This document shows positions 4,206 to 34,061 of a DNA stretch of 64,000 nucleotides, piece after piece. The stretch covers positions 1,302,001 to 1,366,000 of the forward strand of contig NZ_OZ156465.1 in assembly GCF_964212655.1 (NCBI RefSeq), given 5' to 3'. The notes beneath the pieces are model-generated. The model saw only the letters and a list, made by a program, of their open reading frames with translations. It searched no databases and was not told where the DNA came from. Position 1 is the first letter of the stretch. Every line of letters starts with the position of its first letter. The stretch is from Candidatus Thiodiazotropha sp. LNASS1. GTDB lineage: Bacteria > Pseudomonadota > Gammaproteobacteria > Chromatiales > Chromatiaceae. A program made the translations under genes and the position numbers.

Positions 4206-6631
4206 AGCAAACCACAATATTCAAACACCTCTTCAAGAGAGTTGCGTTGATTTTGTTGAGTGTCAATTTGCTTTTCTCCATCCTTCTATTGCCAATATAC
4301 AAAGACAAGCTGGTGCGGATGATCGCCATCCAGGGAGACACATTCGCCAACTCGACGATAGCCGCATGCAGTGAAGCGCTATATACGGAAGACTTCAGCT
4401 TTATCATCTCTTATGTCAACAAGGTACTGCAACAAACACCGGAAATATCTTTTGTGACATTCACCTCGGTCAAAGGTCGGATGATCAAACTCACAAATGA
4501 CGGCTGGAATGTTGAAAGCCTGGAAAAGAGCCTGGATTTTTCACAATTCAAGAATTCATCGCCCTATAAGATAGAACATGTGAAGAGTGGTAATAATGCT
4601 TTTGTCTTTACCAAACCGATCAATATCAGCGGCCTCGAATGGGGAATCTTCTCACTTGGTTTGGCTGATACGGAATACGAGGCCTTGTTATTCAGCTATT
4701 TCCGGAATGTCCTGATATTCAGTTTTTTGCTTGTCTTCATATCCCTTTTACTGTTGCATGGCAGCTCTCTGAAGCTAGGGCAACAACTGGCCAATCTGCG
4801 TCATACCGCCAACAGACTGGCACATGGGGAACTCACTGCTCGCGCGCCCACCAATGCGATCGGTGAAGTCAGCGTACTTGCCAATACGCTTAACGGCATG
4901 GCGCAAAGTCTGGACCGTAATACCAGGGATTTACGCCGCCTCGCACGCCTTGTTGAAGACACCAATGATGCCATTGCCATATTCGATAATGAAGACAAGA
5001 TAATCTTCGTCAATGCCGCATTGAAAAATATCATCAACCAGAATGATGACTACTTCAATGGCATGTCACTCTTCACTTTCCTCAATCATTTGAAAGTAGG
5101 CCGAAACAAGCAACTTGAAATCGCAAATGAATTCTCCAGTGTAGACCAACATGACTGGTCGACCGATATCACTATCAGAACACTCAAACACAATCTGACC
5201 CACATGACTATGCGCATCGAGCGCTTTGATATCGATGAAATCGATAGCGGAGGCTACTTTGTCATTCTCTCCGACATAACCCGGCGTAAACAACTTGAAC
5301 ACGAACTGGAAGTCCTTGCCTATATCGACAAATTGACTAAACTGCCCAACCGCCGCTACTTCATGGATCGTCTCACCGAGGCAGTTGAAGAATCCGAAGC
5401 CTTCGATAGCGGCCTGGCCGTCTTTTTTCTCGACCTGGACAACTTCAAGATCATCAACGATTCTCTCGGCCATGAGGTTGGCGACGTTGTATTGAGCGAC
5501 GCCGGTTGGCGCATCCAGGAGGCTCTTCGCAGTGATGATATCGTATGCCGCCTGGGCGGTGACGAATTCACCGCCATTATAAAGGGTGTGAATAATAGAA
5601 AATCCATCAGCCAGGTTGCTGCCGCCATCTTGAAGCGCTTTCAAATACCGTTCTATTGCAATGATCGTGAATTACGCGTCAGCGCCAGTATTGGCGTAGT
5701 GATTTATCCGGATGACGGGCTCAACACAAAAGAGTTGATCAAGAATGCCGACACAGCCATGTATGCGGCTAAAAGAAGCGGTAAGAATGCATACCGGTTC
5801 TTTTCCGAGGAGATGCATCATGACATTCGTGACTTTCTCGACATAGAAGGAGCGCTGAGACAAGCTATTACTTCAACTGGGCTCTATCTGGTCTACCAAC
5901 CTTTCATCAATTCCGATGACGGTGAGATCCATCACTGCGAAGCTCTGCTACGCTGGAAACAACCTGAACGCGGTTTGATACCACCGGGAAAATTCATCCC
6001 GATTGCCGAACAGTCGGGCTTGATCGGCGAAATCGGCCAATGGGTTTTCGCTAAAGTCTGCCAACAAATCAAGGCATGGGATTTTGACATAAATGTTTCT
6101 GTCAATGTATCTGGCAGTGAGTTGCTGGACAATCACTTTGCGGAGCGTTTGCATAACACGCTCATCGAGTATGACATCTCTCCTCACCATATTCAGCTTG
6201 AGTTCACGGAACATGTCCTGGTCAGTAAGGAGGGCAAGAATCTTCCTGTACTGAATCAATTGAAAAGAATGGGTTTCAATCTGGCGGTTGACGATTTCGG
6301 TACCGGATTCTCATCACTCAGTTATCTTACCGAACTGCCCATCGATGTCATAAAAATCGACAAATCATTTATCAGCAGAATACCCCACGATCGCAAAACT
6401 GTCGCGGTATCGAAATCCATCATCTCTCTGGCGCACAATCTGGAGATTCTGACCATAGGTGAAGGTGTTGAAAACCAGGCCCAGGTGGAATGGCTGAGAG
6501 CTCATGATTGCAAGTTGATTCAGGGTTACTATTTCTACAAACCGATGAGCGCCAGTGAACTTGAGGCACTGATCTGTAAAACCAATGTCACATTGTTCGA
6601 TCCTCAACGAAAAAAACGGAAGACCACATGA
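4202..6631 (+). CDS. Membrane GGDEF-EAL protein with HAMP and PAS
   Basis: An 809-residue enzyme of c-di-GMP turnover. TM1 is at about 12-32, a periplasmic domain at about 33-163, TM2 at about 167-187, a HAMP-like region at 190-245, PAS at about 245-360, GGDEF at about 370-535 and EAL at about 545-795. The cyclase site is intact (GGDEF at 452-456) with an RxxD product-inhibition site (RSDD, 443-446). The EAL site looks intact: EAL at 580-582, NVS, EFTE, DDFGTGFSS at 697-705, KIDK. Both synthesis and hydrolysis are therefore possible and the net activity cannot be read. The periplasmic domain is a candidate docking surface for the coupled PhnD-like proteins. The closest precedent is NspS-MbaA of Vibrio cholerae. 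Confidence 0.93.
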   Translation: MKQTTIFKHLFKRVALILLSVNLLFSILLLPIYKDKLVRMIAIQGDTFANSTIAACSEALYTEDFSFIISYVNKVLQQTPEISFVTFTSVKGRMIKLTNDGWNVESLEKSLDFSQFKNSSPYKIEHVKSGNNAFVFTKPINISGLEWGIFSLGLADTEYEALLFSYFRNVLIFSFLLVFISLLLLHGSSLKLGQQLANLRHTANRLAHGELTARAPTNAIGEVSVLANTLNGMAQSLDRNTRDLRRLARLVEDTNDAIAIFDNEDKIIFVNAALKNIINQNDDYFNGMSLFTFLNHLKVGRNKQLEIANEFSSVDQHDWSTDITIRTLKHNLTHMTMRIERFDIDEIDSGGYFVILSDITRRKQLEHELEVLAYIDKLTKLPNRRYFMDRLTEAVEESEAFDSGLAVFFLDLDNFKIINDSLGHEVGDVVLSDAGWRIQEALRSDDIVCRLGGDEFTAIIKGVNNRKSISQVAAAILKRFQIPFYCNDRELRVSASIGVVIYPDDGLNTKELIKNADTAMYAAKRSGKNAYRFFSEEMHHDIRDFLDIEGALRQAITSTGLYLVYQPFINSDDGEIHHCEALLRWKQPERGLIPPGKFIPIAEQSGLIGEIGQWVFAKVCQQIKAWDFDINVSVNVSGSELLDNHFAERLHNTLIEYDISPHHIQLEFTEHVLVSKEGKNLPVLNQLKRMGFNLAVDDFGTGFSSLSYLTELPIDVIKIDKSFISRIPHDRKTVAVSKSIISLAHNLEILTIGEGVENQAQVEWLRAHDCKLIQGYYFYKPMSASELEALICKTNVTLFDPQRKKRKTT

Positions 6632-15653: not shown

Positions 15654-16943
15654 ATGTTTTACGACAACACCCAGCCCCACGCCTACTGGTCCCGTGCCAT
15701 GATCCTGGTGGATATGAACGCCTTTTTCTGCAGCGTGGAACAGGTCGACCACCCGGAGCTACAGGGACGTCCTATCGGTATTACCAACGGCTCCCAGGGG
15801 ACCTGCATCATTACCAGCTCCTATGAGGCACGCGCCTATGGCGTGCATACCGGCATGCGGCTGAAAGAAGCCCAACGGATCTGCCCCGGTTTTCTACAAG
15901 TACCGGCCCGCCCGGAGCGCTACGCCCAGGTCTCCTCCCGTATCATGGAGGCGCTCTCAGGTATCACCCCGGACATGGAGATCTTCTCCGTCGATGAAGC
16001 CTTCCTCGACATCACCCATTGCCAACGCCTTCTCGGTACCCCGCACCAGATCGCAAAGCGGGCCAAACAGACAGTGCTGGAGGCCTCCGGGGGGGTGCTC
16101 TGCTCGGTGGGCGTCAGTGGCGACAAGACCACCGCCAAGTATGCCGCCAAACTCGACAAACCCAACGGCATGACCCTTATCCCTCCTGGTGTGGCGCAGC
16201 AGACCCTGACCAGGGTGCCGGTCACTGAATTGTGCGGTATTGCCAAGGGCATCGGCCGCTACCTGGCGGAACGGGGTGTCTATACCTGTGGCGACATGCG
16301 CCGCCTGCCTATCGGCGAGATCGGGCGCCGCTTCGGCAACCCGGGACGGCGTATCTGGCTGATGACCCAGGGACTCGATCCCGAGCCGGTGCATACCGAT
16401 GTCGATGCGCCGAAGTCGATCGGCCATGGCAAGGTCATGCCCCCCAACACCCGTCGGCGCGAGGTGGTCGAAACTTTCCTGTTGCATATGGCGGAGAAGG
16501 TGGCCACCCGACTGCGCCTGCACCACTTCCGCGCCAGCCTGTTTTACATCGGGGTGCGTATCGACGAGGGCTATCTCAGCCGCAAATACCGCTGTGATCC
16601 ACCCACCGACCACAGCCCGGAGATCGTTGCCATGTGCCAGGACTTCCTCGATAACCACTGGGCCGGCCAGGGCTGCCACCAGGTACAGATCACCGCCCTC
16701 GATCCCAAGTACGCCGACTACCAGCTCGACTTTCTGCAGCCGGACCACCAACGTCAGGATCGTCTCAACCAGGCCATGGACCATATCAACCAGCGCTACG
16801 GTGAATTCACCCTGGCCCCCGTTCGCCTGCTCAGCCGATCGAAAATGCCCAATGTCATCGCCCCGGCCTGGAAGCCGTTTGGGCACAGGGAAACAATTCT
16901 GCAGCACCCTGGCAAAACGATGGTTGATAGTTATGAGTTATGA
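15654..16943 (+). CDS. Y-family (DinB/UmuC-like) translesion DNA polymerase
   Basis: A 429-residue polymerase. The palm motifs are present: VDMNAFFCSVEQ with metal ligand Asp20, and FSVDEAFLDI with Asp114 and Glu115. They are followed by the VGVSGDKTTAKYAAKLDKP block, a helix-hairpin-helix-like thumb (ELCGIAKGIGRYLAERGV) and a little-finger domain (SIGHGKVMPPNTRRREVVETFLLHM). Such enzymes copy past DNA lesions with low fidelity as part of the SOS response. No classical QLxLF beta-clamp peptide is obvious at the end. The last six codons (VDSYEL) and the stop lie in or at the edge of repeat copy D, so the repeat may have changed the C-terminus. An earlier short form starting at Met16 is also possible. 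Confidence 0.9.
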   Translation: MFYDNTQPHAYWSRAMILVDMNAFFCSVEQVDHPELQGRPIGITNGSQGTCIITSSYEARAYGVHTGMRLKEAQRICPGFLQVPARPERYAQVSSRIMEALSGITPDMEIFSVDEAFLDITHCQRLLGTPHQIAKRAKQTVLEASGGVLCSVGVSGDKTTAKYAAKLDKPNGMTLIPPGVAQQTLTRVPVTELCGIAKGIGRYLAERGVYTCGDMRRLPIGEIGRRFGNPGRRIWLMTQGLDPEPVHTDVDAPKSIGHGKVMPPNTRRREVVETFLLHMAEKVATRLRLHHFRASLFYIGVRIDEGYLSRKYRCDPPTDHSPEIVAMCQDFLDNHWAGQGCHQVQITALDPKYADYQLDFLQPDHQRQDRLNQAMDHINQRYGEFTLAPVRLLSRSKMPNVIAPAWKPFGHRETILQHPGKTMVDSYEL

Positions 16944-17129
16944 GTTTTTAGTTTTTAGTTTCGGTGTTCGCTACACTCACAACTTTTTGACCCCATCTCC
17001 CTGGAGGGGAGGGAAAGCACCGTTCTGCGATTGCGTAAAGCATGACGTTTCCCACAAGGAAAGGGTTTGGGGGAAGGAAAGAAAAACCGTGAGCGTAGCG
17101 AACACCAAAACTCAAAACTAAAAACTCAA
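16930..17129. repeat. Dispersed inverted repeat, copy D (expanded)
   Basis: Left arm AGTTATGAGTTATGAGTTTT then GGTGTTCGCTACACTCAC (16963-16980); right arm GTGAGCGTAGCGAACACC (17089-17106) then AAAACTCAAAACTAAAAACTC. About 110 bases lie between the cores, longer than in copies A-C, and include purine-rich GGAGGGGAGGGAAAG and GGTTTGGGGGAAGGAAAG. The polymerase stop codon is inside the left arm. Confidence 0.75.
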
Positions 17130-17159
17130 CCCCTCCCAATATGTATCGCGGCCTGATTT

Positions 17160-17576
17160 ATGTGCACCGCCGTCTACTACACCCTCAACGGCCAGGAGGT
17201 ACGCACCAAGTTCCCCAATGCCAGGGCCTGCCTGCCGGTGAAGAACAGGCACGGCGGTGCCGACCTGCTACCCTGGGGACGGCGCACCCACCAGCTCGGC
17301 AAACTGCCATTGGGGGGCTGGGCCAGGCTCGATGCCATCTATAGCGGGCATTGGGACCGCTGGCGGCCGATTCCGGTAAAACTGCTCGTCAGCCAGTTCA
17401 TGGAGGTGGACATGGAGGGCTCCAGCCACTGGTTCGACGTCACCCCGGGCAAATGGATCCAGGGACTGGTGGCCCACTGGGAACACGAAAGGCGTGTCTA
17501 TGTGGTCACCATCACCCCGGAGATGGAAGACGCCGCCTATGAACGTTGGCCGCGCATACTCAGCCACAGTCGCTGA
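17160..17576 (+). CDS. Divergent SRAP-like (YedK/HMCES-type) protein
   Basis: A 138-residue protein beginning Met-Cys. I read it as a shortened relative of SOS-response-associated peptidases, which crosslink abasic sites through Cys2. The order of blocks fits: MCTAVYY (MCGRY), LLPWGRR at 37-42 (WGLIP), WARLDAI at 54-60 (NARAE), FMEVD at 80-84 (FYEW), QGLVAHWE at 101-108 (AGLWE), TIT at 117-119, ERWPRIL at 128-134 (HDRMPVIL). Cys2 and Glu82 are kept; the catalytic-site Asn and His are replaced by Trp54 and probably Tyr127. The position after lexA and a Y-family polymerase supports a DNA-damage role. The family assignment is by eye and could be wrong. Confidence 0.6.
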   Translation: MCTAVYYTLNGQEVRTKFPNARACLPVKNRHGGADLLPWGRRTHQLGKLPLGGWARLDAIYSGHWDRWRPIPVKLLVSQFMEVDMEGSSHWFDVTPGKWIQGLVAHWEHERRVYVVTITPEMEDAAYERWPRILSHSR

Positions 17577-17591
17577 TCAAGGTAAAGTACA

Positions 17592-17610
17592 AGCCGCTAA
17601 TGAACGCCCA
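17592..17610 (+). repeat. Solo half-copy of the AGCCGCGAATGAACGCC repeat
   Basis: AGCCGCTAATGAACGCCCAT closely matches the right arm (read on the minus strand) of the inverted repeat at 39631-39790, AGCCGCGAATGAACGCCAAT, with two differences over 20 bases. Only one arm is seen here. Confidence 0.5.
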
Positions 17611-17659
17611 TCGTTATGCCAACGGAGCCTGCGTGAGACGCCTCCCTTAAGCGGACTCG

Positions 17660-17740
17660 ACTAAGCAACACCGTATTGCACGGGTACAGATCATCTGTGT
17701 TAGCCGCATGGCGTGCATTCCGTAAACCATACTGCTTAGT
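17660..17740 (+). ncRNA. Candidate structured RNA or leader upstream of the toroid-GGDEF gene
   Basis: An 8-bp closing helix (ACTAAGCA 17660-17667 with TGCTTAGT 17733-17740) encloses two clear hairpins: CCGT-ATTGCA-style (17671-17674 with 17680-17683) and ACAGA-TCA-TCTGT (17686-17698), plus a weak third near 17706-17716. It lies 147 bases before the ATG of a diguanylate cyclase. I looked for known c-di-GMP riboswitch signatures and did not find them. The direction is assumed from the downstream gene. The rest of 17577-17886 holds no gene I can support. Confidence 0.35.
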
Positions 17741-17886
17741 AACCGGTGCAAGCCAGCTCAGGCCTCTGAAAGATCCAACCCGGTCGATCGGGGATTAGAG
17801 ATTTTACTTTCCTTTACAATAAACCGACTCATATTACACCGAATATCCCTATAATTTTACTGGGATTTCCTGCTGTTTGGATTGAT

Positions 17887-19725
17887 ATGAAAATAAATAA
17901 GGTTCTGATGTTGCTTGCAGGGATTCTGGTTGTTATGGCGATTTCCTTTCAATGGAAAATCAGCAGCGATACTGTGTACGCTTCTGAACTGGAAGCGCAG
18001 TATCAGCAAGCGATGGATGATTACAGTGAAAATAATATCTACTATTCACCCCAGGCCACTACTCAATGGATCGTCCAACGGCAAAATCCGGCAGGTTACT
18101 TTGTCACCAATCCGGATATGCTGTTCGAACCCTCCCAGCTCAATAACAGCACACTGCGAGGTACACGCTATGCTATCAGCACCCTGGGAGATCTGGACGG
18201 GCTGTACAGCATAAATCGACTTGCTGTCATTGATTTTATCCTGGGTCTGTATGAAACGGAGATCAAACAGACTAGGGCGGAAACCTATACCCGATACCAA
18301 CGCGGTACCCGCTATGATGGATTTAAAACCCTGCCTGGCCAGGACGTCGGGGTGAGGCCAACCATGGATGCCCTCATGATACTTAATAGACTCGACCTTC
18401 TGGACGATCCGAGACTGAATCTGGATGGCATCTGGAACTTTATCGTTGCCCATCAAAATCAGGACGGAGGATTCTGGGATGAGCATTATCCAATGCTCCT
18501 AAAAAACTCCAGTATGAAATGCACCTCATTTGCAGCACGGGCTCTCGCTATACTGAGTCAACATACCGGTCGACCGATACCGGAGAAACTGAGTAAGGGT
18601 ATCATTCAGTTTGTCCAGAATAATTACGATATTGTTACCGGCGGCTACAGCAGTCAACCGGGAGAAAATTCTGACGATAGCTACAATGCGTTTCGCGCAT
18701 TCAAATCCATCTGGGATACCACCAATGGCAGTAATGAAATCAAACGTCAGGCAGTTAGCGATACCATCGACTTGAATACGCTTATTGACTATTTCAATAA
18801 TAATCACTATCTAGTCGAATTGGGGGGCTATTCCCGCCATAGTAAGCTTGAAAAGAAAAAAGCCTCCATTAAAGCTACCCACCTGACCGTGTGGCTTTTG
18901 CATGACATGCAACTTCTTGATCACGTCGACATACATAGAATAAGCAAGTATGTCATGTCGATGAAAACCCCGAATGGTCAATATGGTGGAGACATTTATA
19001 CGACTTATTCAGCAATTGGCCTGCTACAGAAAATGGGTATCCCCTCGGCACCCAATCCTGAACCGGAAAAACCGGAAAAGCCGGCGATAATTCCTAGTAT
19101 TGTACCTACAACATTCTTCATAACAGCACTGATAACTTTACACCTCGGTTATCAAGCTAAAAAATTTGAGTTTAAAACCATCAACAAAGCCCTCATCATT
19201 CAGGCGAGCACGGATGCTCTTACCGGCATCTTTAATCGGCAGAGTTTCGAGCAAAAACTGAAGCATGAGATTGAAAAATCCTTAAGGTACAAAAGACCCC
19301 TGACGACAATCATGTTTGATATCGACAACTTCAAACGGATCAATGACAAGCACGGTCACATTGCTGGAGACACTGTACTCAAAGAAATTTCTGTACTGAT
19401 AAAAGATGCCCTCAGGGATTCAGATATTTTTGCACGCTGGGGTGGTGAGGAATTCATTATACTTTCTACTGAAACAGATATTGAAGGCGGGCGACAACTT
19501 GCAAAAAAAATGCTCGATCTGATAAATAAAAAAGAATTCACCGTGGTGCAGAAAATCTCTGCAAGCTTTGGTGTTACTGAATTCGGTGCTGAAGATAGTA
19601 TGGAAAGCCTGGTGAAGCGGGTCGATAACGCCATGCTGGAAGCCAAGCAACAGGGCAAAAACAGAATCATCAGCGTGGATGCAAAACATTACTGTCGGCC
19701 AGCCTGTCTGACCAGCGGATCATGA
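17887..19725 (+). CDS. Toroid-sensor diguanylate cyclase (prenyltransferase/squalene-oxidase-like repeats + GGDEF)
   Basis: A 612-residue membrane protein. Residues 6-21 form an N-terminal hydrophobic segment. Residues 50-385 show spaced helical repeats with the G-rich turns of the squalene cyclase/protein prenyltransferase alpha-alpha toroid: QNPAGYF (66-72), NQDGGFW (191-197), VTGGYS (250-255), ELGGYS (311-316), PNGQYGG (362-368). A Pro/Glu linker (PEPEKPEKP) leads to a TM at about 403-421 and a GGDEF domain with FDIDNFK, RWGGEEF (GGEEF 519-523) and an RxxD inhibition site (RDSD 510-513). An active cyclase with a periplasmic toroid is therefore predicted. No cyclase DxDD motif is present, so the toroid looks like a binding domain. 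A candidate structured RNA lies upstream. Confidence 0.85.
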   Translation: MKINKVLMLLAGILVVMAISFQWKISSDTVYASELEAQYQQAMDDYSENNIYYSPQATTQWIVQRQNPAGYFVTNPDMLFEPSQLNNSTLRGTRYAISTLGDLDGLYSINRLAVIDFILGLYETEIKQTRAETYTRYQRGTRYDGFKTLPGQDVGVRPTMDALMILNRLDLLDDPRLNLDGIWNFIVAHQNQDGGFWDEHYPMLLKNSSMKCTSFAARALAILSQHTGRPIPEKLSKGIIQFVQNNYDIVTGGYSSQPGENSDDSYNAFRAFKSIWDTTNGSNEIKRQAVSDTIDLNTLIDYFNNNHYLVELGGYSRHSKLEKKKASIKATHLTVWLLHDMQLLDHVDIHRISKYVMSMKTPNGQYGGDIYTTYSAIGLLQKMGIPSAPNPEPEKPEKPAIIPSIVPTTFFITALITLHLGYQAKKFEFKTINKALIIQASTDALTGIFNRQSFEQKLKHEIEKSLRYKRPLTTIMFDIDNFKRINDKHGHIAGDTVLKEISVLIKDALRDSDIFARWGGEEFIILSTETDIEGGRQLAKKMLDLINKKEFTVVQKISASFGVTEFGAEDSMESLVKRVDNAMLEAKQQGKNRIISVDAKHYCRPACLTSGS

Positions 19726-19837
19726 TTCCCTACGTCGCTGGAACCTCGCCACTCGATCGACGACATTCCCAAGCCATTGAAGCTGTAGAAAAACCCATAA
19801 TTTTACGTAATAAATGGTAAATTGATGGAAGCAGTCA

Positions 19838-21277
19838 CTATTCCACAAGCGCCTTCATCTCATCCAGGATGAGTTTGGCTCGCTCAGGGTGTTGTTCCAT
19901 CTCCCTGCTCTTGGCGGCGATCCACTGCGCCTCTTCCTGCAGCAACCGGTTCAGGTTCTCTTCATAGACGACTACCGGATAGTCTCGCTTACGCAGTTCC
20001 ACCACATAGTCGTTGAGACGCTCTTTCAGCAGCAGCCGACGGGTCTGTTGCCGGGTATCCGGATCATTGATATCGGTATATTTCGAAGCCCTTTGATCAG
20101 TCACCCGAACAATATGCCAGCCGGCGGGGGTCTCTACGGGGCCTCCCAACTCGCCGATTTCAAGGGCGAAGGCCAACTCATCCAGAGCGGGAAAACCGCT
20201 GCCCTCCTCGACCCAGCCGAAGTCACCCAGGGTCTGCTTTGCCCTTGGATCGATGGAGTGGTTGAGCGCCGCCTGGTAGATGGTCATTTCACCCTTCCCC
20301 AGTTTTTCCATAATATCCAGCGCCGCCTTCTCATCTTTCAACACCACCATCTGCAGTTTGCGGTACTCATTGAAGGTAATGCGCCCCTGATGTTCCGTAA
20401 AATAATCCCGTACCTCCTGCTCCGTCGGCTGCATAGCTTGCGTCAGCGCACTACGATGCCGATTGACCAGGCGTGTCATGCTGAATTCGGCCAGGGCGGC
20501 CTGAAAACCCGGATCCTGATCCAGCCCCGCCTCTCGCCCCTTTTTCGCCAATAGATAGTTGTCAATCAGTCCATTCAGGGTTTTCAGGCGTCTGTTGATA
20601 TCGATCGAGTTGTTCAAGGTAGTGAGATATTTCTTACTCTCGCCCCATGTCATTACGTTACCGTCATACTCGGCGATCACCTGCTCATCGCTACGTATAC
20701 CGTCATCTTCAATCTCAAGATGCTTGGTGTGAATCATTACCTTAGTCCCGGCATGCAGATGTTTGCGCAATCCCTGTTTGCGTGCCAGATATTTTGCTTT
20801 TTTGACCTTTGCCTCGACCAGGGGACGCATCTTGTCATCCAGCTCGGTATCCTTGGCAAAGTGTTTCTTCACATAGTCGGCAATATCTGCTTCGCTGACA
20901 GCGGTATCCGCTTTCAGGTAGTGTCTGCGATAGAGTCCTGCAAGCATGCCATCGGCATACTCCTGCAACTCCCGTTTGAAATTCGGGTCCTCCAGCTTTC
21001 CCTTGCCGACGGCATCCAGATAGAGCAGGTTGACGCTGATCGCCCTGTCCAGCAGTGTCAGGACCACAGTACGTCGTTCGGGTGTACCCAGTGCCGGCGT
21101 TGACAGGCCCACTACGGCTGTACTGTTCAGTTGTGTGTTCAGTTGGGGGAAGGTGATGATTCGATCGTCAACCCGGGCCAGGATATTGCTATCGGATAGT
21201 ACAGGCTTTGCTGTAGGTTCTCCCCATGCGGAAGCGGCCAGGAAACAACCGGCCGCCAGTGTTACAAGATTTTTCAT
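19838..21277 (-). CDS. Periplasmic parvulin-type peptidyl-prolyl isomerase (SurA/PpiC-like)
   Basis: A 479-residue exported foldase. A signal peptide (LVTLAAGCFLAASAWG) is followed by SurA-N-like helices (ILARVDDRIITFPQLNTQL) and a second similar element (QVIAEYDGNVMTWGESKKYL), then one parvulin domain near residue 320-410 (LGDFGWVEEGSGFPALDELAFALEIGELGGPVETPAGWHIVRV). The final 70 residues are helical. GGAGGC precedes the start. It follows the nine-haem cytochrome gene by 206 bases on the same strand, so it may help fold or export that large secreted cytochrome. This association is inferred from position only. Confidence 0.88.
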   Translation of the reverse strand: MKNLVTLAAGCFLAASAWGEPTAKPVLSDSNILARVDDRIITFPQLNTQLNSTAVVGLSTPALGTPERRTVVLTLLDRAISVNLLYLDAVGKGKLEDPNFKRELQEYADGMLAGLYRRHYLKADTAVSEADIADYVKKHFAKDTELDDKMRPLVEAKVKKAKYLARKQGLRKHLHAGTKVMIHTKHLEIEDDGIRSDEQVIAEYDGNVMTWGESKKYLTTLNNSIDINRRLKTLNGLIDNYLLAKKGREAGLDQDPGFQAALAEFSMTRLVNRHRSALTQAMQPTEQEVRDYFTEHQGRITFNEYRKLQMVVLKDEKAALDIMEKLGKGEMTIYQAALNHSIDPRAKQTLGDFGWVEEGSGFPALDELAFALEIGELGGPVETPAGWHIVRVTDQRASKYTDINDPDTRQQTRRLLLKERLNDYVVELRKRDYPVVVYEENLNRLLQEEAQWIAAKSREMEQHPERAKLILDEMKALVE

Positions 21278-21483: not shown

Positions 21484-24400
21484 TTACCAGCCACAGGTTG
21501 AGCCGGTGCGATCCAGGGATACATCTTCCCATACGCTTTCCGACACCCGGCCTTCCGCGAGATGGAGTTTCCACTCCCGACCGTCTTCGCCGTTACAGGC
21601 CACTTCCTGCCATTCATCATCATGGCAACCCTGACAGACGGTAGTGCGCGGATCAGTGGAGCCAAATACAGAGCCTGAGATCAGTATCTCCACCTGGTCC
21701 ATGGTCTTTCGCGATACCCGCCCCTTCATGGCATGCTCCAGCCACTCATCTTCCGATACACTGACTTCATCGTTCTCGTTTTCATGACAGCTGATACAGA
21801 AGTCGTCTCGAGGATCGTGATTATCGGTAAAAGTATGGGCCCAACTCACTGCCGCGTCGAAATCACCGGCGATCGGCGTACCGTCGAAGCGCAGACCTTC
21901 ACCCTCGTCACAGTTGTCTCCATCCTCGCCCGGCGCACAGACCCGTGTGGGTATCTGGGCATCAGGATTGTCGGCCAGGGTCTCGTACATATGGCATGAA
22001 CCGCACTTCAGCGGACCATGGCTGTCGTCGCTGTTGAGATAGGCCGCCTGGGCATAGGTTGTGGCATCAACACCATCCACACCGGGACCCTGCTCCAAAT
22101 GAGGCGCCACCGGATAGAGGCCGTGGATCGACTCATGACAACCCTGACAGGTGATGTCCCGGTGACCGCGCGAGTAACGCATCAACCCCGCCTTGCGTGG
22201 ATAGTTGAAGGGCGGATGGTCATTACCCGGCTGATGGCCGCTCGGCTCCACATAGGGTGCGGTGTGGCAGTCGGCGCAATGAGGTTCGCCGGCAGCGAGC
22301 CAGTGGTCGCGTCCGTCGGTTGCCGCCGAGAAGGGTACCGCGGCCGCCATCGATCCACTCAGGGTCTGCTGGGCTGCAGCCACGCAATCGTCGGTGGTGC
22401 AGAAATCGAGGATACTGACACTGAAATCGCCGTCGCCATCGAAGCTGCCGCAGATCTGGAAGTCCGCCTCGCCGTTGCCATCACAGTCGGGGCCTGGTGC
22501 TGCGGCACCGGTGGTACATGCGGTGACGTCTCCCGCCACCTCGATGGTGGCCAGCTTGGCGTCGAGCGCCGGGTCGGTACTACCGCCCAAATAGGCGCAG
22601 AGCCCGGGATCGCGGCGCCAGATGGCCATGGTCTCTTCCGAGGTGCGAATCGCACCATCGGCCGGGAAGACATTGGGATCTCTCGGATCGAGCCAGTCCA
22701 AAGCCTGTTGCGTATCGACGCCCACTGCGGCGGCAATGTCATCCAATGAAGCCAGCGCGCGGATATTGCTCGCGCCTGGGCCGGGTATGCCATCGATCAG
22801 GCTCTCCATGTTCTCGCGTTTCCAGATCTCCTGGCTCAACTGATTGTGACAGTTGGTACACCAGATACCCCGGTCGTCGCGATCGCTGCCCGCAAGGCCT
22901 GCCTGATTGCGTGAAACATTGTCGCGCAACCATTCGCCGATGGCTGTCAGGTGCTCAGGCGTACCTGCACCATCGATATCCTTGAACGGATTGGAGTGAA
23001 CATCACGGCCGACGAAACAACCGCCGGCGCCTAAACGGTTATCCGTATCGGCATAGAAGTTGTCCCCCGTCTCGGTGATGGGATAGCCCGCCATGTCGCC
23101 ATTGGAACGATGGGCTGGATGACATCCCTGGCAACCGCCGAAACGGCCGAGACTGTCGCTGAATGCGATCGGACCGCCCTCGCCGACACCGCGATGGGTC
23201 TGATGAATCGCCTCGGACATGGGCAGAATAACTTTATTGTTGCCCTCATCATCGATAAAGGAGGCCGACTTGACCTGGGCGATGACATTATCCGCATGGC
23301 AACGTTGACACAGCACGGTGGTATTGCCGATTCGGGTGCTTTGCGCGAACACGGGCCGGTTGTTTTGCGCCGACAGATCGGCAGCCAATGCATCGCACTC
23401 TGCCGGAGTGCCGCAGGCCGGATAGTTGACCAGGAAATCCGTGCCATGGCTCATGTCATGCAGGCCGAGAATACTGATGGCCGCACTCTTGAGTCGCGGA
23501 TACCAGTCCGAGTCGCCAGGACCTATACCATAATAGCTCATCCAGAAATTGTACTCCTGCTGAACCTTGGCCCAGATTTCATCCCCGCTCTTATGGGGAG
23601 AATTGGTGGTATCCACCTCTGAATGGCAGCGCTCGCAGTTGGGGATATCGATGGGGGCGGTACCGAAGCCCTCCACCGGCACACCATTCTGCATCACAGG
23701 TTCACCCATGCCGCCCGGCTGAGCGGGATCGTAATGGCGCAGCTTGGCCCTCATCGCGACAAAGGGGCGTACAGAGTCCTCGAACATCGCGCCCGGATCG
23801 GCAAAGAAGTTGATGGAATCCTCGAACGGAGTCAACGGGAGCCCCAAGGCCTCCCAGATCCTGGGTGAGGTCAGGGTGATCGGCAGGTTCTCCAATACCT
23901 TCATCTGAGTGTAGACAACAGTGCCATGCTCACCCGAGAAAGTCAGTACATTGCCATTGGATGCGCCACCACAATCATTCGGTACGGCAGGATTGCTTGG
24001 TACACCATCGGGATGAGAAACAGGCCCCATGGGATGGAGGCCGGCGCCGCAATCAGCGGGATACTCGATATGGCCGGTTACGCCGAGTCGAATCTTATCG
24101 CTCTCCGCGGTTGAATTGTTGGGATTGGCCCCCTCCAGGTCGGCATAGATATAGAGATGATTCCAGACTGCATTCCAGTAGTTGTCGGTCGGATCATCGA
24201 AATCGCCATCACCCACCATAGCGCCGCTGACACCGTTCCAGGTCGGATTGCCATTACCGGAGGTCTTGAGCGAACCGTCCGGATTGACCACTGCCGAATC
24301 GGCAAGGGTATTCCACATCAGCAGTGAATTGCCCTCTGTCGCACTGATCAGCGTTGAGGTCTGAGGCACAACCTGCGGGCGGGTTTCACGGGGCTGAGCA

Positions 24401-24915
24401 TCATGCCAATATTCAAGCACATACTTTTGGAAATCCCCATTCGCATCGAGATCGGGATCACGCAAAACAGTCTGGCGTCCCAAAGCATCCAGGCCTACCG
24501 AGGGATCTCCCTCCAGAAGGCGCGCGAAGGCCGTCTGCCCTTCGTCACTCTGCTGCGTCTTCACAACCTGGGCAAGGATAGAGTTGTAAGGAGGCAATAC
24601 ACAACAGTAGGCGAACTCAAACCCGGTACAGTGCATACCGAGTTCGTAGTTCATCATGATATTGAAACTGTTCTTTGGGCGCAGTGCCAAGCCGTTATCG
24701 CCGTCACCCTCACCTTCGGAATGTCTCTCTTCCTCTTCCTCGTCCTTCCTGCGCTCATCCTCTTCGCTACTGTATTTGTCTTCCTCGTGATTTTCCTCTT
24801 CTTCATCACTGCTCGCCCAGCCATTGTCCATGGTGAAAATCAGCATAAAGATAAACGAAATCGCGAGTGTTACGAAGCGATGGGATTTATTACGTCGTGA
24901 TTGATTGAACTTCAT
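21484..24915 (-). CDS. Large secreted multihaem c-type cytochrome (9 CxxCH)
   Basis: A 1143-residue exported protein. A signal peptide (residues about 12-35) is followed by a very acidic, Glu/Asp-rich stretch (about 36-75), then NYELGMHCTGFEFAYCCVLPPYNS, the same module seen in the PKD cytochrome. Nine CxxCH haem sites follow: CERCH, CQRCH, CQGCH, CTNCH, CADCH, CQGCH, CGSCH, CISCH, CQGCH. Between sites four and five an Asp/Gly-rich part (CDGNGEADFQICGSFDGDGDFSV) looks like a calcium-binding or dockerin-like loop. GGAGGGG lies before the start. A role in periplasmic or extracellular electron transfer is expected; donor and acceptor are unknown. It sits between a TlpA-like thioredoxin and a parvulin foldase on one strand. 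Confidence 0.9.
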   Translation of the reverse strand: MKFNQSRRNKSHRFVTLAISFIFMLIFTMDNGWASSDEEEENHEEDKYSSEEDERRKDEEEEERHSEGEGDGDNGLALRPKNSFNIMMNYELGMHCTGFEFAYCCVLPPYNSILAQVVKTQQSDEGQTAFARLLEGDPSVGLDALGRQTVLRDPDLDANGDFQKYVLEYWHDAQPRETRPQVVPQTSTLISATEGNSLLMWNTLADSAVVNPDGSLKTSGNGNPTWNGVSGAMVGDGDFDDPTDNYWNAVWNHLYIYADLEGANPNNSTAESDKIRLGVTGHIEYPADCGAGLHPMGPVSHPDGVPSNPAVPNDCGGASNGNVLTFSGEHGTVVYTQMKVLENLPITLTSPRIWEALGLPLTPFEDSINFFADPGAMFEDSVRPFVAMRAKLRHYDPAQPGGMGEPVMQNGVPVEGFGTAPIDIPNCERCHSEVDTTNSPHKSGDEIWAKVQQEYNFWMSYYGIGPGDSDWYPRLKSAAISILGLHDMSHGTDFLVNYPACGTPAECDALAADLSAQNNRPVFAQSTRIGNTTVLCQRCHADNVIAQVKSASFIDDEGNNKVILPMSEAIHQTHRGVGEGGPIAFSDSLGRFGGCQGCHPAHRSNGDMAGYPITETGDNFYADTDNRLGAGGCFVGRDVHSNPFKDIDGAGTPEHLTAIGEWLRDNVSRNQAGLAGSDRDDRGIWCTNCHNQLSQEIWKRENMESLIDGIPGPGASNIRALASLDDIAAAVGVDTQQALDWLDPRDPNVFPADGAIRTSEETMAIWRRDPGLCAYLGGSTDPALDAKLATIEVAGDVTACTTGAAAPGPDCDGNGEADFQICGSFDGDGDFSVSILDFCTTDDCVAAAQQTLSGSMAAAVPFSAATDGRDHWLAAGEPHCADCHTAPYVEPSGHQPGNDHPPFNYPRKAGLMRYSRGHRDITCQGCHESIHGLYPVAPHLEQGPGVDGVDATTYAQAAYLNSDDSHGPLKCGSCHMYETLADNPDAQIPTRVCAPGEDGDNCDEGEGLRFDGTPIAGDFDAAVSWAHTFTDNHDPRDDFCISCHENENDEVSVSEDEWLEHAMKGRVSRKTMDQVEILISGSVFGSTDPRTTVCQGCHDDEWQEVACNGEDGREWKLHLAEGRVSESVWEDVSLDRTGSTCGW

Positions 24916-25295: not shown

Positions 25296-25826
25296 CTACT
25301 TCTGCATGACCTGGTGAACAATCGAAGTGGCTTCGTCACTATCCCACTCGATAGGACCAATCGCCTTATAACGCAAGCGCCCCTGTCCATCAACGAGAAA
25401 ACTGCTCGGGAAGACCTTGACCTCCCAGGCGTTGGCTGCGACCCGGCTTGGATCAAGTAGAACGGGAAACGTAAGTTTCAGGCGTGCCGCCATTTTACTT
25501 ACACGACGTTCGCTCTCCTCGACATTGATGGCCAGAATGACAAAATCGGACTGGTTCATCGCCTCTTTCAACCTGATCAGGGACGGCATCTCCTCAATAC
25601 AGGGAGGGCACCAGGTTGTCCAGAAGTTGAGTAAAACCGTTTTGCCCTTGAGATCGCTGATTTTGACTTGATTGCCTTTTAAGTCTTGAAGCACCAGGGA
25701 GGGGGCAGGATGATTCGGCAATACAACCTCAAGCCAGCCACCATGCGTCAGGCCGCTTACTGAAAATGAAAACAGGATCAGCGCCTGTATGAGATTGATC
25801 AAATATGATCTTTTGAGCAGATTCAT
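25296..25826 (-). CDS. TlpA/ResA-like periplasmic thioredoxin
   Basis: A 176-residue protein with an uncleaved or cleavable N-terminal hydrophobic segment (about residues 8-26) and a thioredoxin fold: LQDLKGNQVKISDLKGKTVLLNFW, active site WCPPC with the usual EEMPSL after it, VILAINVEE and a cis-Pro region KVFPSSFLVDGQG. The TlpA/ResA group reduces disulfides outside the cytoplasm, often to keep apocytochrome c haem-binding cysteines reduced. The next gene downstream on the same strand encodes a nine-haem cytochrome, which fits that role. The intervening 380 bases argue for separate promoters. Confidence 0.88.
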   Translation of the reverse strand: MNLLKRSYLINLIQALILFSFSVSGLTHGGWLEVVLPNHPAPSLVLQDLKGNQVKISDLKGKTVLLNFWTTWCPPCIEEMPSLIRLKEAMNQSDFVILAINVEESERRVSKMAARLKLTFPVLLDPSRVAANAWEVKVFPSSFLVDGQGRLRYKAIGPIEWDSDEATSIVHQVMQK

Positions 25827-31124: not shown

Positions 31125-34061
31125 TTATGAAATAGCTGCTTGATCTTTGTTTAGTTCCTTCATGAGTTCTGCGAAATGGGCACTTAACGCCTCCAACTCG
31201 TTAATTCTTTTCTGTGCATACTCTGTGTTCCCCATATTATTAATGCTGATTATTTTATATCCGAGTGCATGTATCTGCTCATGCAGCCTGTTGAGTTCAG
31301 TGTATTGTGGCAAACTGCCATACTGAATAAAACCAATACCATTGAACCAATAACTGAAGTTGCAGTGTTTGCTATCCAACTGGCTATGGTTTATTGCCTC
31401 ATCACGATTCACATACCCAATCAGGTTGTCCACCCATCGTTGATGACTGGTTAGCGCCACTTCAATATCGACATGATGACTCTGAGTCACTCTGTTTTTA
31501 AGGCTCCGCCACAGTTGATTGCCTTGCCATTGCTTCAACCATGCTGGGATCTCATTTGCCGGCATCGGTCTGGCAATGCCATAACCCTGACCTAATCGAC
31601 AACCCAATTGGAGTAGTGCAACGGCATGTTCCATGGATTCCACACCTTCCGCAATGACCGGATGCTGAAAAGCATGCGCAAGGCGAACCACGCTATCAAC
31701 GATGGTTAGATCCTGAGGATCATCCAGCATGTCCCGCACAAAATTCTGATCTATTTTGAGTATATCGACAGGAAGACGATGAAAATAGGCGAGGGAAGAG
31801 TAACCCGTACCGAAATCATCCAAAGAGATCTTAACCCCCAACTCACGGCACTCCGACAGGGTGTGATAGATAACATTCGTATCATCTATAGAGGCGGTTT
31901 CGAGAATTTCCAGTTCAAGCATATCGGGAGTTACATCAGCATACTTTGCAAACCGCTCCCGAATATACTCGGTGAAACCGGGATACTGCAGATGGTGTGG
32001 ACTTATATTTATACTGACCGGCAGCTGAAGCCCCATTTTTCGCCATTGACTCATCTGTTGCAATGCATGATCGAAAACCCATTGACCCAGCTCGATCTCC
32101 AAGTCTGTTTTAGTAATAATTGATAAAAAATCACCTGGCGGGGTAATGCCCGCTTCCGGATGCAGCCACCGGATCAAGGCCTCGACGCCTATAACGTCAC
32201 AACTGTACATATCAACCTTTGGTTGAAAGTAAAGCGTGAATTCCTGCTTCGACAATGCGTTCCTGAGCAGCTTGATATTTTTACGATTGGCCTTTATCTT
32301 CTTGTCATGCAGTGGATCAAACAGATGGTAGCAGTTCTTGCCCGCCTCCTTTGCCCAATACATCGCCTGATCAGCGTGCCGTAGCAGGATGTCCGCGTCC
32401 ACATCGTCCTCCGGGTATACGGTCAGGCCAATACTTGCACTGACTTCCAGAGCTGTATCATCCAAGTGTATGGGTTCTGCTATAACCTCCAATACCCTAT
32501 CCAAAACCAAAATGCACTCATCCATACTCGTCAGATTAGTCAGTATCAATACGAACTCGTCTCCACCGATGCGCGATACCGTGTCCTCCTCACGCAATAC
32601 ACCTTCTAACCGACTTGCTATTTCAATCAATATCTTATCGCCTGAGTCATGGCCAAACCGGTCATTAATCGGCTTGAAACCATCGAGGTCCAGATAACAA
32701 ACCCCCACACTGGTTGCGTTTCGTTTACTGTATGCAATCGCCTGGCGTAGCCTGTCGGTTTTCAGACGCCGATTGGGTAAGCCGGTCAATGGATCGTAAT
32801 GTGCGATATGTTCAAGTTCCGCTTCAGCCTTTTTTCTGTCAGTTATATCGTGAATGATCGAATAGAGCACCTGCTTGCCATCCGAGATGAAGGGACCAGA
32901 GTGTACCTCGACATCCCTGACCTCCCCTGACGCCAGGGCGTGACGAAAAATGAAGTGGTTGCGTTCTTCTTTTCTAGCCCTGCTCATCTCCTGAGCAACT
33001 TCCTCTTCGCTGAGCGTATTGATGTCATTGATACTCATTTTCAGGAGCTGTTCAATGGTATAGCCGTAATACTCAGCTGCGGCCCTGTTCGCTGTGAGAA
33101 TAGAGCCTGAGTCGGGGTCGATCGTAAGCATCACCGCCTTGTTAGCCTCGAATAACATTCTGGAGCGTTCTTCACTCATACGCAGCGCTTCAGACAAACC
33201 TTTCTCCCGTTCAAGCGCCTCCAGCAGATCATGATTACTTGCCTGCAGCGTCTGATTTGCCGTCTCAAGCTGTCGTGTACGCGCTTCTACTTTCTCTTCC
33301 AACTCAATACCTGAACGCCTGAGGGCATCGATCTGTCCTTTGATTGTACTTCCCATTTCCTGCAATGCACGGGAGAGAGTACCGATCTCATCTTCACTAT
33401 GTATCTTAACCGGTTGTTCGAATCTGCCATTTGTTATGGATGCCGCATACTCGGACAGCTGCTTAACAGGCTCTACAAACTGTTTACGCATAAAGAAATT
33501 GAGAAGTATTGCGATAGCGATGAATGTAAGCAAAAAATTGAAAACAACCTGCCTGACTGCCTGCATGACCTTGTCGTCGATGACTTTGGTAGAAAAACCG
33601 AGCCGGATAACGCCTACTGTTTGAGCTTCGTCAATGATGGGTATGGAAACATCATAATAGCTCTTGCCATCGGACCGTTCGTGGATCTGCCACAAAGGCT
33701 GGTCGGCAGACAAGGTATTGACTGTCACAGTATCGTTATATTTCTGCCCGATCTGTGCATTATCACTGTGAAAAAGCACCAGGCCCGATTGGTCAGTAAC
33801 GCTTGCATACTCAATGTGTGGATTTTTATCGACTACTTCCTTAAGCTTTCCATCCATCCCGGAGAGTGACTCGAGCGGCAATCCCAAAGCCAGCAGTTCA
33901 TCAAGTACACTTTCAATGCTATGACCAATACCAAAACTACCCGTCAACAGAGCATCGGTATAATTTGTGCGAAAACTGTTTATATTCACTACAGAGCTGA
34001 GCAGTAACGAGAGCACGAGGGTACCGATAGTCACCAGCAGTATCTTCTGGTTAAGTCTCAT
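31125..34061 (-). CDS. Cache-HAMP-PAS-GGDEF-EAL protein with CZB-like C-terminus
   Basis: A 978-residue membrane protein: TM1 at 8-26, periplasmic Cache-like sensor at 30-160, TM2 at about 172-190, HAMP at 192-245, coiled coil to about 295, PAS to about 410, GGDEF motif at 499-503 with RxxD (REED 490-493), EAL at 627-629 with DDFGTGYSS at 748-756. Both catalytic domains look intact. Residues 870-978 carry a pattern I read as a divergent CZB domain: His873 (HQRW), Cys900 (CNFSYWF), His927 and His931 (HEQIH), the same order and spacing as in the chemoreceptor at 26205. It is encoded 35 bases after the PF04392-like binding protein on the same strand. Confidence 0.9.
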   Translation of the reverse strand: MRLNQKILLVTIGTLVLSLLLSSVVNINSFRTNYTDALLTGSFGIGHSIESVLDELLALGLPLESLSGMDGKLKEVVDKNPHIEYASVTDQSGLVLFHSDNAQIGQKYNDTVTVNTLSADQPLWQIHERSDGKSYYDVSIPIIDEAQTVGVIRLGFSTKVIDDKVMQAVRQVVFNFLLTFIAIAILLNFFMRKQFVEPVKQLSEYAASITNGRFEQPVKIHSEDEIGTLSRALQEMGSTIKGQIDALRRSGIELEEKVEARTRQLETANQTLQASNHDLLEALEREKGLSEALRMSEERSRMLFEANKAVMLTIDPDSGSILTANRAAAEYYGYTIEQLLKMSINDINTLSEEEVAQEMSRARKEERNHFIFRHALASGEVRDVEVHSGPFISDGKQVLYSIIHDITDRKKAEAELEHIAHYDPLTGLPNRRLKTDRLRQAIAYSKRNATSVGVCYLDLDGFKPINDRFGHDSGDKILIEIASRLEGVLREEDTVSRIGGDEFVLILTNLTSMDECILVLDRVLEVIAEPIHLDDTALEVSASIGLTVYPEDDVDADILLRHADQAMYWAKEAGKNCYHLFDPLHDKKIKANRKNIKLLRNALSKQEFTLYFQPKVDMYSCDVIGVEALIRWLHPEAGITPPGDFLSIITKTDLEIELGQWVFDHALQQMSQWRKMGLQLPVSINISPHHLQYPGFTEYIRERFAKYADVTPDMLELEILETASIDDTNVIYHTLSECRELGVKISLDDFGTGYSSLAYFHRLPVDILKIDQNFVRDMLDDPQDLTIVDSVVRLAHAFQHPVIAEGVESMEHAVALLQLGCRLGQGYGIARPMPANEIPAWLKQWQGNQLWRSLKNRVTQSHHVDIEVALTSHQRWVDNLIGYVNRDEAINHSQLDSKHCNFSYWFNGIGFIQYGSLPQYTELNRLHEQIHALGYKIISINNMGNTEYAQKRINELEALSAHFAELMKELNKDQAAIS

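Follow-up and report, generated by a model that had tools for sequence, protein, structure and literature searches.

The gene at 17887-19725 of the window (the whole stretch of 64,000 nucleotides that was analysed) is predicted to encode a transmembrane diguanylate cyclase with an alpha-alpha toroid as its periplasmic input domain. We read the protein as a one-component membrane receptor, in which the toroid binds an anionic ligand and controls the GGDEF domain, acting as a receptor rather than as an enzyme, and put the probability of this reading at roughly 60%. The fusion recurs in ten genomes and four genera, and the toroid is conserved about as tightly as the GGDEF domain that it would control.

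Architecture of the protein

The open reading frame starts with ATG, coincides exactly with 17887-19725 on the + strand, and encodes 612 amino acids. The first-pass annotation had described a toroid, a transmembrane (TM) helix and a GGDEF domain in a single protein, and this architecture is supported at the level of sequence profiles, since PF00432 and PF00990 are both matched, with a TM helix separating the two domains. Hydropathy identifies two hydrophobic segments, at about residues 1-27 and 398-420, with a domain of 340 amino acids between them. The features are as follows.

17887-19725, + strand: whole gene, 612 aa, TM1, periplasmic alpha-alpha toroid, Pro-rich linker, TM2 and GGDEF domain (open reading frame, Pfam, hydropathy; periplasmic from the predicted topology)
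17893-17955, + strand: TM1, probably an uncleaved membrane anchor, residues about 3-23 (hydropathy, conservation)
18019-19038, + strand: toroid domain, PF00432, residues 45-384 (Pfam; putative six-hairpin helix arrangement from low-confidence models)
18091-18099, + strand: toroid turn 1, AGY, residues 69-71 (motif scan)
18316-18324, + strand: toroid turn 2, DGF, residues 144-146 (motif scan)
18466-18474, + strand: toroid turn 3, GGF, residues 194-196, inside the invariant DGGFWDEHYP (motif scan, conservation)
18640-18648, + strand: toroid turn 4, GGY, residues 252-254 (motif scan)
18823-18831, + strand: toroid turn 5, GGY, residues 313-315 (motif scan)
18985-18993, + strand: toroid turn 6, GGD, residues 367-369 (motif scan, conservation)
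19039-19092, + strand: Pro-rich linker, residues 385-402 (conservation)
19093-19149, + strand: TM2, residues about 403-421 (hydropathy)
19150-19203, + strand: juxtamembrane stretch from TM2 to GGDEF, residues 422-439 (sequence; putative role)
19204-19665, + strand: GGDEF domain, residues 440-593 (PF00990)
19414-19425, + strand: RxxD inhibition-site motif, RDSD, residues 510-513 (kept in 8/8 complete members)
19441-19455, + strand: active-site motif GGEEF, residues 519-523 (kept in 8/8 complete members)

Outside the two domains, the family alignment has an invariant Gln-Trp pair (residues 22-23) at the end of TM1, and the prolines P389, P393 and P396 of the linker are also invariant.

The toroid fold

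The prenyltransferase toroid profile PF00432 matches the window protein with an E-value of 1.5e-13 (51.3 bits, against a gathering cut-off of 26.5), and all nine members scanned are matched as well, at E-values up to 1 and with 2.2e-14 as the best. The first-pass annotation had proposed two profiles for this region. PF00432 exceeds its gathering score, whereas PF13243 is not reported for the window protein at E up to 10. The five GG-type turns that had been pointed out are present, as [GAD]G[YFW] motifs at residues 69, 144, 194, 252 and 313, and a sixth turn, in the context YGGD (residues 366-369), can be added to them. When the same 340 toroid residues were shuffled 20,000 times, the mean number of [GAD]G[YFW] turns was 0.52, and five or more occurred in about 1/10,000 shuffles.

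Two AlphaFold2 runs, with alignments of three near-identical sequences, gave models of low confidence (mean pLDDT 52.5 in the later run). The helices of the low-confidence model follow the pattern of a toroid, and toroids top its weak Foldseek matches. The first rows are terpene-handling enzymes, led by MstE and drimenyl diphosphate synthase, and none of these leading rows reaches an E-value of 0.001 or better. In a second structural search, complement proteins fill most of the first rows, and GH105 alpha-alpha barrel glycan enzymes are also present. The complement matches would suit a toroid with a protein or peptide of the periplasm as its ligand, on the pattern of complement thioester domains, that reports the envelope or redox state through this partner. 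We consider such a role unlikely, in part because the structural matches stem from a poor model; the evidence from gene neighbourhoods and residue conservation is taken up below.

The GGDEF half

The GGDEF half of the protein is matched by PF00990 over the full length of the profile (positions 1-161 of 161; E 6.6e-42, 143.4 bits against a cut-off of 23.8). Five residues separate RDSD from GGEEF, and an RxxD motif at this distance is common, albeit not universal, in diguanylate cyclases. The earlier description of an intact GGEEF with an inhibition site thus agrees with what is found in the window protein and in all eight complete members, and the profile and the intact motifs together predict that the domain is a diguanylate cyclase. 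An inactive GGDEF domain could alternatively serve as a c-di-GMP receptor, with the toroid as the output rather than the input of the protein. The RxxD motif could bind c-di-GMP, but GGEEF is intact in every complete member, which would be unusual in c-di-GMP receptors of the LapD type, and we regard this arrangement as very improbable.

The window genome has 75 GGDEF matches, and the window itself contains at least three further GGDEF places (5318-5788, 32334-32804 and 44604-45071). In the relative with 93% identity, a GGDEF-EAL-like protein, recognised by eye, is some 6-8 kb away from the toroid gene (L003, 35-3861) and is adjoined by two genes that resemble binding-protein genes, likewise by eye.

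Distribution of the toroid-GGDEF family

Strong matches to the toroid were found in ten genomes (G000, G802, G009, G912, G914, G918, G921, G188, G356 and G119), which span four genera and three families. Nine sequences were read, and the GGDEF domain is reached in eight of them; the ninth (G912) stops at a contig end after TM2. The gene of G802, which is not among these nine, is 99% identical in DNA over its whole length. The lowest identity to the window protein among the members is 43%. Two named records contain the gene: a metagenome-assembled genome of a symbiont from the clam Ctena orbiculata, whose best segment is 100% identical, and a record of Candidatus Thiodiazotropha endolucinida, with 93% identity. 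The window therefore most likely derives from a Thiodiazotropha symbiont that lives in lucinid clams. Judging by its recurrence in ten genomes, across four genera and three families, the toroid-GGDEF protein is no chance fusion. Strong toroid matches without GGDEF were not encountered in the genome surveys.

The surveys were confined to one phylum, and the counts refer to overlapping genome sets rather than to distinct genomes. They come from protein or family-alignment queries, as a whole-genome search with PF00432 missed the window genome's own gene, which makes the misses of that search uninformative. With the first 384 residues as the query, 2/93 relatives were matched, namely the window genome (4.75 Mb, one contig) and G009. 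The toroid protein query matched 5/369 genomes of a class sample strongly (E below 1e-100) and four weakly (E 0.01 to 0.1), and the family alignment matched 7/210 genomes of the order. In a phylum sample of 398 genomes, the family query found the window genome and a single weak match (E 7.8e-5), in which ankyrin-like repeats are recognisable by eye. Searches among the relatives of G119 and of G188 matched 2/76 genomes each, none beyond the known carriers, and 1/3 genomes in the order of G188. A tblastn search of a plasmid collection with the toroid gave no match at E 0.1.

Carriage is patchy within genera. In the genus of the window genome, 3/22 genomes carry the gene, and in genus g29 four genomes match and G048 does not.

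Some weaker hits were inspected by eye. L015 looks like a secreted protein that has toroid-type repeats, and the 723 residues read contain no GGDEF. L019, from G510, is an open frame of 852 amino acids, 609 of which were read; in it, repeats of toroid type seem to precede ankyrin-like ones. L014 appears to be an unrelated protein, and three loci brought in by PF00432 (L005, L006 and L008) resemble squalene-cyclase-type proteins. L016 and L017 are further weak hits (E 0.04 to 0.1).

Genomic site and neighbours

The gene occupies a site whose content varies among relatives.

17577-19837, no strand assigned: variable site between a 138-aa ORF (17160-17576) and a PpiC-type gene (19838-21277) (DNA comparison with relatives)

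In the window this site holds the toroid gene, and in G015, G019 and G020 it holds different genes in each. The gap before the PpiC-type gene thus behaves as a cargo site, by its differing contents in three relatives. At loci L026, L027 and L028 it contains other gene sets, one per relative. By eye, one set is a peptidase-like gene, another combines methyltransferase-like and acetyltransferase-like genes with a further small gene, and that of L028 is a toxin-antitoxin-like pair. Among the matches listed for 22 genomes of the genus, long DNA matches to the toroid gene occur only in G000, G802 and G009, and the flanking genes match widely. The family-alignment search bears out the absence of the gene elsewhere in the genus. 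The simplest reading of these comparisons is that a single gene was gained at the variable site, and loss of the gene in other lineages is possible.

The gene has a G+C content of 44.8%, below that of the PpiC-type gene (53.8%), of a umuC-like gene (61.1%) and of the window (50.5%). At third codon positions, however, the gene (48%) is close to a nearby chemoreceptor gene (51.9%), and for this reason base composition is weak evidence on its origin.

None of the neighbouring genes is shared by every genus that was read. By eye, the neighbours are transhydrogenase-like genes in G188, an esterase-like gene in G356, and an AAA ATPase gene with a MoaE-like gene in genus g29. Thioredoxin-like and multihaem cytochrome-like genes lie within 6 kb of the toroid gene both in the window and in G119, where the cytochrome-like one scores below curated cut-offs. 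This shared neighbourhood would fit a toroid that reports the envelope or redox state through a protein partner; the lack of a neighbour common to all the genera read speaks against such a role. In the window, the multihaem cytochrome-like protein (21484-24915, 1143 aa) matches Cytochrome_C7 with an E-value of 6.8e-9 and an MtrC/MtrF-like domain below cut-off; the thioredoxin-like gene (25296-25826) lies near it.

The 138-aa ORF upstream of the variable site follows lexA- and umuC-like genes and is matched at the DNA level in many genomes of the genus. It begins with Met-Cys, as SRAP proteins do, but no Pfam family matches it at E 0.001, and an identification as SRAP was dropped for this reason. 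It possibly represents a divergent or new SOS-linked family. The stretch 16929-17130 is repeat-like: short matches to it are numerous, on either strand, in the window genome and in the genus. It is probably a small inverted repeat of the mobile kind, and it resembles the Rfam family MIR5998 far below the gathering score (36.9 against 180 bits). Between 16800 and 20000, none of the Rfam families scored above its gathering threshold, promoter and terminator scans gave no more than shuffles do, and an alignment of upstream DNA from six members was uninformative. An operon or riboswitch link for the toroid gene was rejected, since these searches gave nothing.

Conservation and the toroid cavity

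Among the eight complete members (28 pairs), mean pairwise identity is 57.1% for the toroid and 55.9% for the GGDEF domain, and the toroid is the more similar of the two in 18/28 pairs. By this measure, the predicted input domain is conserved about as tightly as the output domain, which is notable for an input domain. Between the window protein and the relative with 93% identity, dN/dS is 0.16 for the toroid and 0.22 for GGDEF, the latter from 13 changes only.

Over nine sequences, 113/340 toroid positions are invariant. Assigned to helices by the low-confidence model (mean pLDDT 52.5), with three short helices taken as loops and two pieces merged into one first helix, 45/99 positions are invariant in the second helices of the hairpins and 11/83 in the first helices (Fisher p 2e-6). 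The loops and the remainder of the toroid are also strongly conserved (57/158). The invariant charged residues of the second helices are eight Lys/Arg and one His against two Asp/Glu; the first helices have no charged invariant residue. Over the whole toroid, the invariant charges are balanced (11 Lys/Arg and three His against 11 Asp/Glu), the acidic ones being mostly in loops, and the net charge is near neutral.

In protein prenyltransferase beta subunits, the helix that follows the GG turn bears active-site residues, and we therefore place the second-helix residues on the inner wall of the ring. With the low-confidence model and this background as its basis, the assignment puts the excess of Lys/Arg inside the toroid, where an anionic ligand would be expected, and so suggests a cationic cavity for such a ligand. 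Conservation that is concentrated on helices predicted to be internal also argues against the toroid as a binding surface for a protein or peptide partner.

An invariant polar interior could also belong to a periplasmic enzyme, whether a cyclase, a transferase or a lyase, in which turnover rather than binding would set the activity of the GGDEF domain. The number of invariant positions, which include D264, Y266, H332, K329 and DGGFWDEHYP, would fit this, as would the terpene-handling enzymes and GH105 glycan enzymes in the structural searches. The expected catalytic signatures are missing, however. The DxDD motif of class II terpene cyclases is absent from all nine toroids, no Cys is invariant over the nine sequences, and an Asp/Cys/His zinc site was not found in the registers considered. 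In the nine sequences, the would-be zinc-ligand positions are Ser, Ala or Leu (265), an invariant Tyr (266) and Thr or Ser (372), in a register that comes from a weak repeat alignment and our own reading of the motifs and is uncertain between repeats. Since DxDD and the zinc ligands are missing, we read the toroid as a receptor and consider an enzyme improbable.

Receptor model and ligand

The absence of catalytic signatures leads us to infer a sensor role for the toroid, and the protein probably does not turn over its ligand; invariant polar residues such as D264, H332 and Y266 would, however, suit an enzyme as well. In the sequence, TM1 anchors a PF00432-type toroid, which should lie in the periplasm to judge from the two membrane helices and from where the GGDEF domain sits, and the Pro-rich linker, TM2 and a short stretch join it to the intact GGDEF domain. 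The rest of the receptor model is as follows. Six hairpins would close into a ring, with the second helix of each hairpin lining the inner wall. This wall would carry the invariant residues R91, R94, R157, K211, R218, R270, K329, H332 and K382, plus the acidic D161 and D264. The cavity would accommodate an anionic ligand that is small or lipidic; a polyprenyl (di)phosphate and an acidic glycan are examples. Binding of the ligand may alter the packing of a receptor dimer, and this change could be passed on through the linker and TM2, so that the two GGDEF domains are aligned or separated. Synthesis of c-di-GMP would then track the ligand level, with the RxxD site capping the output.

An anionic lipid or polymer is a possible ligand. 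Polyprenyl (di)phosphates are candidates because they are generally present in bacteria, and an acidic glycan is a candidate because alpha-alpha barrels of glycan enzymes are among the fold matches. Hopanoids had been among the ligands suggested in the first-pass annotation, and kinship of the toroid with squalene-hopene cyclases might point to hopanoids produced by the cell itself as the signal. In two of the ten carriers, G119 and G356, a protein of the squalene-hopene cyclase type is indeed present (PF13243, with E-values of about 1e-122 or lower). In the other eight, which include the complete window genome and G912 (84% complete), no PF13243 match is over the cut-off, the best being one sub-threshold match in G802; the control search found Bacillus subtilis. 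With eight of ten carriers lacking a cyclase over cut-off, a self-made hopanoid is an unlikely common ligand, and hopanoid sensing as the function of the family appears highly improbable. Host or environmental sterols are possible ligands.

Diguanylate cyclases are abundant, and the signals of most of them are not established. If the receptor reading is true, an enzyme fold has been recruited as a receptor, and a toroid related to isoprenoid enzymes is a concrete candidate for a lipid sensor, with named residues to test. According to a 2022 census, a lipid sensor domain in c-di-GMP systems is yet to be identified (PMC8846402). It is tempting, if rather speculative, to suggest that the toroid is this missing sensor, and that its cationic cavity holds a polyprenyl (di)phosphate on the outer side of the membrane. 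A prenyl-binding enzyme fold would then have been converted to a transmembrane receptor, and the state of a lipid-carrier pool, for instance that of undecaprenyl, the carrier for envelope polymers, would set the c-di-GMP output.

Comparison with known systems

The literature searched contained no description of a toroid-GGDEF fusion, and the papers that turned up were unrelated in the parts available; in those of PMC1978522 and PMC2474590, "toroid" refers to DNA toroids and to a map topology. A paper that links Thiodiazotropha with a diguanylate cyclase or c-di-GMP was not found in the literature searched either. The main text of the census contains no word that starts with toroid, prenyl, terpen, squalene or hopanoid; its Pfam architectures are listed in supplementary tables (PMC8846402).

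For the GGDEF half, the best NCBIfam match is the family of SiaD-type diguanylate cyclases (NF038266, E 8.5e-47). The score of 159.6 bits is below the equivalog cut-off of 290, and residues 429-594 alone align.

For the toroid, two groups of enzymes invite comparison. PF00432 is shared with the beta subunits of protein prenyltransferases (RabGGTase, GGTase III and FTase), which are members of this family. The family profile matches beta chains of type-2 geranylgeranyl transferases with whole-sequence E-values of 6e-6 to 3e-5, made up of several short repeats, none of them significant singly. Prenyltransferase beta subunits have an Asp/Cys/His zinc site; in contrast, the window protein is bacterial, membrane-tethered and, by its topology, periplasmic, and the zinc ligands are not conserved. 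Class II terpene cyclases and squalene-hopene cyclases presumably belong to the same toroid superfamily. Squalene-hopene cyclase has two domains, with DxDD as the class II catalytic motif, whereas the window protein has a single toroid, no PF13243 match and no DxDD in any of the nine sequences.

Transmembrane diguanylate cyclases with periplasmic CACHE, CHASE or PBP sensors share a common one-component plan of a TM helix, an extracytoplasmic input domain, a second TM helix and a GGDEF domain with an I-site (PMC8846402). The window protein follows the plan of these known cyclases, but its input domain is a PF00432 toroid of 340 residues, and a toroid in the role of sensor is new to us.
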